A program made the position numbers and the translations under genes. This document shows, one piece after another, positions 38,087-40,492 of a DNA stretch of 64,000 nt. Source of the DNA: Streptomyces sp. NRRL S-337 (GTDB lineage: Bacteria > Actinomycetota > Actinomycetes > Streptomycetales > Streptomycetaceae). The stretch is from assembly GCF_000720175.1 (NCBI RefSeq), contig NZ_JOIX01000022.1, forward strand, positions 40,097 through 104,096, read 5' to 3'. Each line of letters starts with the position of its first letter. The first letter of the stretch is position 1. The notes under the pieces were generated by a model, which saw nothing but the letters and a program-made list of their open reading frames with translations, ran no database searches and was not told the origin of the DNA.

Positions 38087-38950
38087 ATGGAGCGTCCGGG
38101 AACGGACATCGAGCGCCTGGGGACGGGCATCGGCTGGCGGCCGGAAATCGCCACGGAGATCGCCGGGCTGCCCGGTGTGGACTGGGTGGAGGTGGTGGCG
38201 GAGAACATCTGCCCCGGCCATCTCCCGGACGCCCTGCGCGAGTTGCGGGAGCGCGGGACGACCGTCGTCCCGCACGGCGTCTCGCTCGGGCTCGGCGGTG
38301 CCGACCGTCCGGACATCGGCCGGCTGGCCGCCCTCGCCGAGCGTGCCGAGGTGCTGGGCGCCCCGCTGGTCACCGAGCACATCGCGTTCGTCCGGGCCGG
38401 CGGGCCGCTGACCGCCTCACCGCTGATGGAGGCCGGACATCTGCTGCCGGTCCCGCGCACCCGCGACGCGCTGGACGTGCTCTGCGAGAACGTCCGTATC
38501 GCCCAGGACGCGCTGCCGGTGCCGCTGGCTCTGGAGAACATCGCGGCCCTGGTCAACTGGCCGGACGAGGAGCTGACCGAGGGGCAGTTCCTGGCCGAGC
38601 TCGTCGAGCGGACGGGGGTGCGGTTGCTGATCGACGTCGCCAACCTCCACACCAACCACGTCAACCGCGGTGAGGACCCGGCCGTGGCGCTGGACGAGCT
38701 GCCGGTCGAGGCGATCGCCTACGTCCATGTGGCGGGCGGCGTGGAGCGGGACGGGGTCTGGCACGACAGCCACGCCCATCCGGTGACCCAGCCGGTGCTG
38801 GACGTGCTCGCCGAGCTGTGTGCCCGGATCAACCCGCCCGGTGTGCTGCTGGAGCGCGATGACGACTTCCCCGAGGCCGGCGAGCTGGCCGGGGAACTCG
38901 ACGCGATCCGCACCGTCCTGAAGGAGGCCCGCCATGTCCAGGCGGCTTGA
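38087..38950 (+). CDS. DUF692 / MNIO iron-dependent peptide-modifying enzyme
   Basis: A 287-residue TIM-barrel protein of the DUF692 (multinuclear non-haem iron oxidase) family. ATG 38087 follows GGGAGGGGGAACC. Metal-ligand-type motifs: GIGWRPEI, VEVVAENIC, VPHGVSLGLGG, VTEHIAF, LALENIAAL, LIDVANLHTN, HVAGG and HDSHAHPV. Characterised members (MbnB, TglH, HvfB, ChrH) oxidise cysteine or other residues in ribosomal peptides, usually with a partner protein. The next gene encodes such a partner-like protein (17-bp overlap) and the third a membrane protein with a cysteine-repeat tail, so a post-translational modification role is inferred. Confidence 0.85.
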   Translation: MERPGTDIERLGTGIGWRPEIATEIAGLPGVDWVEVVAENICPGHLPDALRELRERGTTVVPHGVSLGLGGADRPDIGRLAALAERAEVLGAPLVTEHIAFVRAGGPLTASPLMEAGHLLPVPRTRDALDVLCENVRIAQDALPVPLALENIAALVNWPDEELTEGQFLAELVERTGVRLLIDVANLHTNHVNRGEDPAVALDELPVEAIAYVHVAGGVERDGVWHDSHAHPVTQPVLDVLAELCARINPPGVLLERDDDFPEAGELAGELDAIRTVLKEARHVQAA

Positions 38951-39476
38951 GCCCGTACGGGAGCCGGACGCCGGCCCCACCGTCACCGCGGCCTCCACCG
39001 GCCGCACCGGCCCCACCGCCGCGGCACCGGCCGCCCCCGGCACCGACGCGGCGCGGCAGCGGCTGGCGCTGGCGCAGACCGCGCTGCTCTCCGCGCTGGT
39101 CGCCGGCACCCCGGCGCCCGAGGGTTTCGACCGCACCCGGCTGGGCGTGCAGAGCCGGGCGCTGACCGCCAAGCGGTCCGGGGTGGTCGCCAAGGTCGCG
39201 CCCGAGCTGCCCGAGATCCTCGGCGACGACTACCGCCCGGCGTTCGCCGGCTATGCCCGCAACCGTCCGATGCGCGGCGGCTACCGCCAGGACGCGCTGG
39301 ACTTCGCGGCGCACCTGCTGGCCCAGGGCCGTCCCGCGGACCCCGCCGCCCGGCAGCGGCTGACCCGCTGGTGGCGGGACCGCGCGGGCCCCACCCCACC
39401 GTCCGCCGGTTCCGCGGCCCGGCTCGCCCGCGCCGTCCACGCCGTCCGCCAGGCAATGAAGGGAACGTGGCGATGA
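38934..39476 (+). CDS. Putative DUF2063/HvfC-like partner of the DUF692 enzyme
   Basis: A 180-residue protein; ATG 38934 lies inside the end of the DUF692 gene, with AAGGAGG in its coding sequence, so translation is coupled. After a 35-residue Ala/Pro/Thr-rich lead, the core (ALLSALVAGTPAPEGFDRTR, then KVAPELPEILGDDYRPAFAG and NRPMRGGYRQDALDFAAHLL) has the layout of the DUF2063 N-terminal domain: R-x-L..., L...FP..LxxLxGDxY..., ARAYxRxxP..., DFAxxL. DUF2063 proteins bind the leader of the substrate for MNIO enzymes. The match is by pattern only. Confidence 0.6.
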   Translation: MSRRLEPVREPDAGPTVTAASTGRTGPTAAAPAAPGTDAARQRLALAQTALLSALVAGTPAPEGFDRTRLGVQSRALTAKRSGVVAKVAPELPEILGDDYRPAFAGYARNRPMRGGYRQDALDFAAHLLAQGRPADPAARQRLTRWWRDRAGPTPPSAGSAARLARAVHAVRQAMKGTWR

Positions 39477-40492
39477 TGTCGTTCACACAAGCGGTGTACA
39501 TGGGCCTCGGTGCCTCCTCGCTGGTGCTGCTGCTCGGCACGCTCCTGGTGCGGCGCGGCACCCCGTCCGTCCCCAGGGGCGAGGCGCAGGCCCGCACCGT
39601 ATGGGAGATCGCGTTCCTGGCCGGCGGTCCCGGGCGGGTGGTGGACGCGGCGCTCGCCGGGATGTGCGAGGACGGCCGGCTGGCGGTGGGTGGCCCGGGC
39701 GTGGTGACCGTCCGCCAGGCCACCGCAGAGCACGCGGTCGAGACCGCCGTCCTGGACGCGGTCGCCCGGACGCCCGGCGGGGCGCTGGCCGCGGTGCGCG
39801 CCGAGGCCATGCGCAGTCCCGCGGTCCAGGAGGTCGGCAACCGGCTGGCGGCTCGCGGACTGATGCGTCATCCGCGGCGGGGACGCGGCTGGCGCCGGCT
39901 GGCGGGCGCTCAAATGGCGGCGATCCCGGTGCTGTTCGCCCTCGGGGTGCTGCTCTCGGTCGCGGACGCCGGCAACGACGACGGCTTCGGCGAGGCGTTC
40001 GGCCCGCCGGTGGTGATCACGGTCATGCCGGCGCTGATCGGGGGTCTGATCGTGGCCGCGCTGTGCCGGACGGTCTTCCGGAACCGCGTCACCAAGGCGG
40101 GTACCCGCGCGCTGCGCTCCGCGCAGTCGGCCCACTCCCGGGGCGGCGTGGGCGGCGCATGGCAGGCCGCCGGGCTGGTGGTGGCGCTCGGCGGTACGGC
40201 GCTGATAGCGGACGAGCTGCTGCGGCAGCAGTTCGAGGAGGCCCAGCGGACCGCCGCAATGGCCACCGCGGGCGGCTCGTCGTCGTCCGGCAGCGCGGCG
40301 TCCGGTGGCGACGTGGGCGGCGACAGCTCCTTCTGGTGCGGCTCGTCCGACGGCGGCTCCGGTGCGGGCTGCGGTGGCGGTTCGTCCTGCGGCTCCGGTT
40401 CCTCGTGCGGCGGCGGTTCGAGTTGCGGAGGCGGCTCCTCGTGCGGCGGGGGCTCGTCGTGCGGCGGGGGCTCCGGCTGCGGCAGCAGCTGA
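39473..40492 (+). CDS. TIGR04222 membrane protein with Cys-Gly-Ser repeat tail
   Basis: A 339-residue protein whose ATG 39473 overlaps the previous stop. One N-terminal helix (about 7-26) is followed by the TIGR04222 region (ARTVWEIAFLAGGPGRVVDA), then hydrophobic segments at about 147-167, 177-197 and 230-250. From about 270 it is Ser/Gly low complexity. The last 50 or so residues hold eight cysteines, five in the repeat SSCGxG. This tail, next to a DUF692 enzyme and a DUF2063-like partner, looks like a modification substrate tethered to the membrane; metal binding is another reading. The tail-first topology is not known. Confidence 0.75.
   Translation: MMSFTQAVYMGLGASSLVLLLGTLLVRRGTPSVPRGEAQARTVWEIAFLAGGPGRVVDAALAGMCEDGRLAVGGPGVVTVRQATAEHAVETAVLDAVARTPGGALAAVRAEAMRSPAVQEVGNRLAARGLMRHPRRGRGWRRLAGAQMAAIPVLFALGVLLSVADAGNDDGFGEAFGPPVVITVMPALIGGLIVAALCRTVFRNRVTKAGTRALRSAQSAHSRGGVGGAWQAAGLVVALGGTALIADELLRQQFEEAQRTAAMATAGGSSSSGSAASGGDVGGDSSFWCGSSDGGSGAGCGGGSSCGSGSSCGGGSSCGGGSSCGGGSSCGGGSGCGSS

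Follow-up and report, generated by a model that had tools for sequence, protein, structure and literature searches.

A candidate MNIO system with a Cys-tailed TIGR04222 membrane protein as its putative substrate in Streptomyces

MNIO (DUF692) proteins are a family of iron enzymes known for modifying cysteines. The locus described here, in a window of 64,000 nucleotides from Streptomyces sp. NRRL S-337, raises the question of which cysteines such an enzyme would modify when its gene runs into that of a membrane protein with a cysteine-rich end. A sequence-only reading of the window had proposed an MNIO with a DUF2063-like partner and a Cys-tailed membrane substrate, and that reading holds up computationally. 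In the account which we favour with moderate confidence, based on sequence comparison, the MNIO and its partner would modify cysteines in the tail of the co-transcribed TIGR04222 protein, giving a membrane-tethered tail at the cytoplasmic face. The two proteins, fused into one in most of the genus, would form a cytosolic modifying complex that oxidises Cys residues in the Gly/Ser/Cys C-terminal tail, probably to thiooxazole- or thioamide-type groups, and the outcome would be a tethered tail that is metal-binding or redox-active, with a possible role in stress, perhaps peroxide stress. Our computations show the gene identities, the fusion, the association of MNIOs with Cys tails on several carriers, and a shared motif upstream.

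The unit comprises three forward-strand genes which, as had been claimed, overlap end to start by 17 bp and 4 bp. The first (38087..38950, +) encodes an MNIO of 287 residues, its DUF692 identity confirmed by PF05114 (E 7.5e-80, 268.4 bits, cut-off 25). The best-scoring curated sub-family model is that of the bufferin maturases, yet the protein falls below every sub-family cut-off. No signal peptide was seen in it by eye, and 16 His, Asp, Glu or Asn positions are invariant among 96 aligned MNIOs. The second gene (38934..39476, +) encodes the 180-residue partner, a PF26136 protein (SCO6045-like C-terminal domain; PME-type 2-like). The third (39473..40492, +) encodes a TIGR04222 membrane protein of 339 residues (121.9 bits, cut-off 43), the candidate substrate. 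Its eight-cysteine end was also correctly read: residues 287-339 (40331..40489, +) form a Gly/Ser/Cys tail with 8 Cys, the predicted modification sites. A further TIGR04222 protein, this one lacking a Cys tail and overlooked in the sequence-only reading, is encoded at 40629..41447 (+; 108.6 bits), and an exact match to the 18-bp motif CTCAAATSNWSCTCTGAA lies upstream of the unit at 37996..38013 (+). The genome (9.06 Mb), close to Streptomyces endophytica with an MNIO identity of 98%, holds a single MNIO match and two TIGR04222 matches, all at this locus.

Two genes upstream of the MNIO, an open frame at 35103-37262 (+) carries a C-terminal PTH2 (PF01981) peptidyl-tRNA hydrolase domain and resembles the 'adjamnio-II' neighbour described in published passages. 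Downstream and convergent, at 43282-45521 (-), are genes for HemQ, the H2O2-dependent haem synthase (NF042928, 358.7 bits), and protoporphyrinogen oxidase; a HemQ-like gene, recognised by eye, has the equivalent place at locus L018.

The partner had been assigned a DUF2063-like layout, which fails at the Pfam cut-off (E 0.044, 14.5 bits, below 27.2 bits) and stands at the level of fold, the predicted model matching NGO1945, TglI and MbnC by structure comparison. DUF2063 was matched weakly in 15 of 56 partner relatives (best E 0.0011). The protein belongs to PF26136 in a precomputed database, and UniRef names the members SCO6045-like C-terminal domain proteins. No RRE domain was recognised in the partner, and its profile found nothing convincing among PDB sequences (best E 0.02). 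Judged by its predicted model, the partner is of PME-type 2, with an NGO1945/TglI-related fold and no DUF2063 signature. It is fused to the MNIO in 77 of 85 Streptomyces loci, and we infer that SCO6045 is the fused MNIO-partner protein of S. coelicolor.

Turning to the putative substrate, the final 53 residues of the window protein comprise 8 Cys, 24 Gly and 17 Ser, and the last seven cysteines are spaced by a six-residue period. The tail uses four Gly codons and four Ser codons, a mixture that makes a recent DNA duplication less likely. At least three Cys occur in the last 70 residues of 108 of the 115 homologues of this protein. Comparable tails are found on other carriers. At three MNIO loci outside the genus without an adjacent TIGR04222 gene (L050, L052 and L054, in genomes G095, G105 and G066), a small protein encoded directly 3' of the MNIO-partner genes has a single N-terminal hydrophobic segment and a Gly/Cys tail; these proteins are possibly an undescribed carrier family. 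The same scan recovered no such small tailed protein at seven loci (L051, L053, L055-L059), some of which hold other MNIO types. At two further loci a TIGR04222 protein is encoded directly 5' of an MNIO and scores above the TIGR04222 cut-off, matching only the first 128 of 229 positions. That of L033 (220 residues, 4 Cys) has zero predicted TM segments, and that of L021 (233 residues, 7 tail Cys) has one marginal segment that falls, by eye, within a conserved soluble helix. On the strength of these sequences, the Gly/Cys tail is a portable module carried by three kinds of protein beside MNIOs.

The association of tail and enzyme is closest outside Streptomyces. Among 148 genomes of the class, TIGR04222 was detected in at least 57 and MNIO in 33, the best 17 TIGR04222 candidates per genome being scored in this and the other TIGR04222 surveys. 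Outside the genus, all 19 genomes whose TIGR04222 tails include one with at least three Cys, a cut set after the tails were seen, have an MNIO, and all 15 TIGR04222 genomes without such a tail are MNIO-less (Fisher 5e-10, kinship ignored). This table of 34 genomes was put together manually; it takes in the 30 non-Streptomyces genomes whose TIGR04222 match exceeds the cut-off and four just under it, and leaves out other sub-cut-off TIGR04222 matches, as well as MNIO genomes G018, G066 and G105, which have no over-cut-off TIGR04222. Within the 19 MNIO-positive genomes, the MNIO of G067 is represented by just 33 residues at the edge of a contig and was missed by the genome scan, and that of G034 is partial. 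The expectation that Cys-tailed TIGR04222 genes neighbour a DUF692 gene is borne out for most of these genomes; tails without an MNIO neighbour are uncommon, one or more being present in 4 of the 19 (G085, G095, G114 and G034), and each of the four genomes has an MNIO elsewhere. In G018 an MNIO is present and no tailed neighbour was found. Seven TIGR04222 loci from one MNIO-less family (L037-L040, L043, L062, L063) have a Gly/Asp-rich tail without Cys. At L036, a Cys-tailed TIGR04222 gene runs into an apparent partner remnant, as if an intervening MNIO had been deleted.

Within Streptomyces the same expectation meets its reverse case. Of the 150 genomes sampled from the genus, 142 have an MNIO, and 38 of the 85 loci, here termed type B, have the MNIO and partner without a Cys-tailed TIGR04222 neighbour, which is a clear problem for a simple one-substrate model. 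A search of the MNIO strand out to 4 kb found a Gly/Ser/Cys-tailed frame at 46 of the 47 other loci and at none of these 38, in three of which the available stretch ends within 2.2 kb. In a first scan for a substitute Cys-tailed gene (19 loci, nine of type B), two Gly/Cys-rich frames appeared and were judged not to be genes: the frame at L022 is another reading frame over the 3' end of the partner, and that at L049 is on the opposite strand approximately 3 kb away. One clade holds 36 of the 38 type B loci (support 100/86, from a bootstrap that had not settled), and a tree of 144 species requires a minimum of eight state changes, at least four of them forced by well-supported branches. These changes are losses only given the ancestral state, which was taken as tail gene present. 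The tree was built without identical sequences, L090, L136 and named loci with less than 2.4 kb downstream, and with L144 labelled type A by hand. The tree, the 85 loci and a set of 80 named loci were all chosen for MNIO presence, and the two locus sets have some species in common. The Cys-tailed gene is also missing from close relatives of the window (L147, L148, L150 and L207). The 16 invariant MNIO positions are intact in type B loci.

One large clade (36 of 85 loci) and several small ones retain MNIO and partner in the absence of a Cys-tailed gene, which favours an alternative in which the pair acts on another, partly unlinked substrate, and the adjacent Cys tail is auxiliary or an unmodified metal/disulfide tail. 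Two example candidates may be named: the tail-less TIGR04222 protein and a soluble TIGR04222-like protein encoded elsewhere. In the first, a Cys-x3-Cys lies close to where TM1 ends; among 58 aligned tail-less proteins, that at 40629-41447 included, its two columns are conserved at 81-94% within the type A and type B groups, and this conservation favours the alternative. The tail-less protein is unlikely to be the sole substrate, because 14 of the 142 MNIO genomes of the genus, several of them fragmented drafts, show no TIGR04222 match among the best 17 candidates scored; in four of the 14 (G016, G096, G168 and G190) no TIGR04222 was seen at the MNIO locus. The eight MNIO-less genomes of the genus include five without TIGR04222, two whose TIGR04222 protein is tail-less, and the draft genome G240, which has a three-Cys tail. 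We consider an alternative substrate unlikely overall; the tight association of Cys tails with MNIOs outside the genus, on three kinds of carrier, argues against it.

Some further features of the tail-less proteins and their surroundings may be recorded. In the 58 aligned, another Cys column (90-93%) lies near TM3, where the window Cys-tailed protein has Thr. A DUF4142 gene lies directly 3' of the MNIO-partner fusion in many loci of the genus (L017, L019, L048, L049 and others; 72.5 bits in L017), followed in L017 and L019 by a tail-less TIGR04222 gene.

The second candidate comes into view through the upstream motif. CTCAAATSNWSCTCTGAA consists of two CTC-type heptamers 11 bp apart and, at three or fewer mismatches, has one site in the window against 0.11 expected. 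With up to two mismatches it lies upstream of the MNIO in 78 of the 85 genus loci, the same loci from which it was derived, and in 79 of the 80 named loci; shuffles, preserving base content alone, gave 1 of 1700 and 0 of 1600, respectively. It is missing (three or more mismatches) in seven of the 85, and all 25 loci outside the genus are without it (six or more mismatches). The motif also marks unlinked genes for TM-less TIGR04222-like proteins, which favours the other-substrate alternative: 17 of 22 such genes have it, at one mismatch or fewer, starting 83-147 bp upstream of the matched domain, the 22 being the strong matches (E <1e-40) among 39 matched genomes of 150, and the shuffle control at up to two mismatches gave 0 of 1100. 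The 22 genomes comprise 14 of type B, none of type A and eight not classified, from a sample holding 35 type B and 46 type A genomes; 21 of the 35 type B genomes have no strong TM-less match, and type A genomes account for 11 of the 17 weaker matches. The last 45 residues of the 22 proteins contain no Cys in four cases, one in 13, two in three and four in two, and such Cys-poor tails make these proteins weaker as candidate substrates.

Across 20 whole genomes the motif, at up to two mismatches, occurs at 1-4 sites each, versus 0-1 for a reversed control. A second site at one mismatch or fewer was found in eight of 14 type B and none of six type A genomes. At five of these eight (L294, L298, L299, L301 and L303) the next 1.4 kb holds no TM-less gene, which would fit loss of the gene with retention of its promoter. 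These five keep motif and leader, and the adjoining convergent neighbour looks the same by eye. Unlinked related proteins with a membrane-hairpin-like insert were observed at L261-L268, six of the eight in type A genomes (L261 and L267 were not classified); the tail of L261 has 3 Cys. SenR was rejected as regulator of the motif, as the SenR site given in passages of PMC4991794 does not resemble it, and a structured RNA leader was likewise rejected (z -1.55, with a single Rfam match in 37800-41500, far below gathering score).

If the tail of the TIGR04222 protein is the substrate, as we favour, on which side of the membrane does it reside? The window protein has hydrophobic segments at residues 8-26, 148-166 and 180-198, and a weaker one at 232-250. 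By eye, TM1 is followed by Arg-rich sequence and there is no signal peptide to be seen. Topology was estimated by simple hydropathy and the positive-inside rule for 115 homologues (six of 121 were dropped for length). Three segments, with the N-terminus out and the tail in, were assigned to 78, and four segments with the tail out to 28, the window protein included; the remainder had four segments with the tail in (eight) or five with the tail out (one). An external tail would chelate copper or other metal while tethered, much as a bufferin does, and would be modified prior to export; it is for this arrangement that the 28 four-segment homologues speak, along with an AlphaFold2-based extracytoplasmic prediction for other members, found in passages of PMC12452194. 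The majority with three segments and an internal tail speaks against it, as does the character of segment four, whose median hydropathy among 67 aligned homologues is 0.70 (at least 1.6 in just 11), compared with 1.82, 2.06 and 2.17 for segments one to three. At this segment the predicted model has only an eight-residue helix (233-240), then a helix at 248-269, and a similar motif is present in TM-less relatives; segment 232-250 is probably not membrane-spanning. The three single-TM anchors beside MNIOs are, by eye, Arg-rich after the TM segment, i.e. on the tail side, and this, too, is at odds with an external tail, as are the signal peptide not seen by eye and the lack of a copper gene among the few neighbours scanned. 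The hydropathy of the window protein itself thus favours a tail outside, while most homologues, the TM-less relatives and the single-TM carriers favour the cytosol. We regard the external arrangement as distinctly improbable. Because segment four is poorly hydrophobic, and soluble and single-TM carriers exist, sequence considerations place the tail probably in the cytosol, contrary to the published periplasmic placement.

As to the role of such a tail, the sequence-only reading had mentioned copper or redox buffering at the membrane. Nothing found supports copper specifically. According to passages of PMC4991794, SCO6045 is up 3.01-fold after H2O2 in the wild type (Table 1), and is among 28 H2O2-induced genes, including those for cysteine synthesis, none of which is induced in an HbpS-SenS-SenR mutant. 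This induction offers a hint of peroxide or cysteine stress. Our literature search found no paper stating a role for MNIOs in Streptomyces. A Foldseek search with the TIGR04222 model returned nothing below E 0.42, and the model's soluble half weakly resembles GOLPH3/Vps74, a likeness for which profile comparison gave no support.

The central idea is not new, since it was already predicted in 2025: passages of Antoine et al. (PMC12452194) propose that MNIOs with PME-type 2 partners act on subsets of TIGR04222 proteins, Cys-tailed membrane proteins mostly from Actinomycetota. The clusters described there share with ours an MNIO adjoining a TIGR04222 protein whose Cys-rich Ser/Gly tail is C-proximal, and a DUF2063-like partner without the Pfam signature. 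In their cluster type 'adjamnio-II - MNIO - TIGR04222' a peptidyl-tRNA hydrolase precedes the MNIO, as it does here, the domain being PF01195 in those passages and PTH2 (PF01981) in ours. The passages searched make no mention of MNIO-partner fusions; beyond them, our comparison adds the usual fusion in the genus, the other tail carriers, the upstream motif and the frequent absence of the tail gene. The bufferins (Buf1/Buf2 with BufB/BufC), which carry thiooxazole groups according to the same source, also pair an MNIO and a DUF2063-type partner acting on Cys-rich proteins. They differ in that the candidate substrate here is a polytopic membrane protein in which no signal peptide was seen by eye, and the BufB cut-off, at 310 bits, exceeds the 183 bits scored by the window MNIO. 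The HvfABC oxazolin, MbnBC methanobactin and TglHI systems share the enzyme superfamily, and the partner model resembles TglI and MbnC; the window MNIO, however, falls well below the HvfB, MbnB, ApyH and ChrH cut-offs, and, in contrast to these systems, none of the genes in the window operon was recognised as encoding a small precursor peptide.

The system is real and well conserved, and our sequence comparisons propose the fusion, a portable cytosolic tail and a control motif as features open to testing. A broader reading, which we advance tentatively and would sooner doubt than assert, is that Actinomycetota MNIOs act on a portable cytosolic Gly/Cys tail with exchangeable carriers, among which switching has occurred repeatedly: polytopic TIGR04222 proteins, soluble TIGR04222-type proteins (one of them unlinked and sharing the 18-bp motif in Streptomyces) and single-TM anchors. 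The fused partner, the other carriers and the common motif lead to testable predictions on the location of the tail, the proteins that are modified and the signal in control. Should the tail prove cytosolic, the picture of exported bufferins would not extend to the large TIGR04222 group, and, should the portable-tail reading be true, these MNIOs would represent a branch of MNIO biology that operates in the cytoplasm, separate from that of the exported bufferins.
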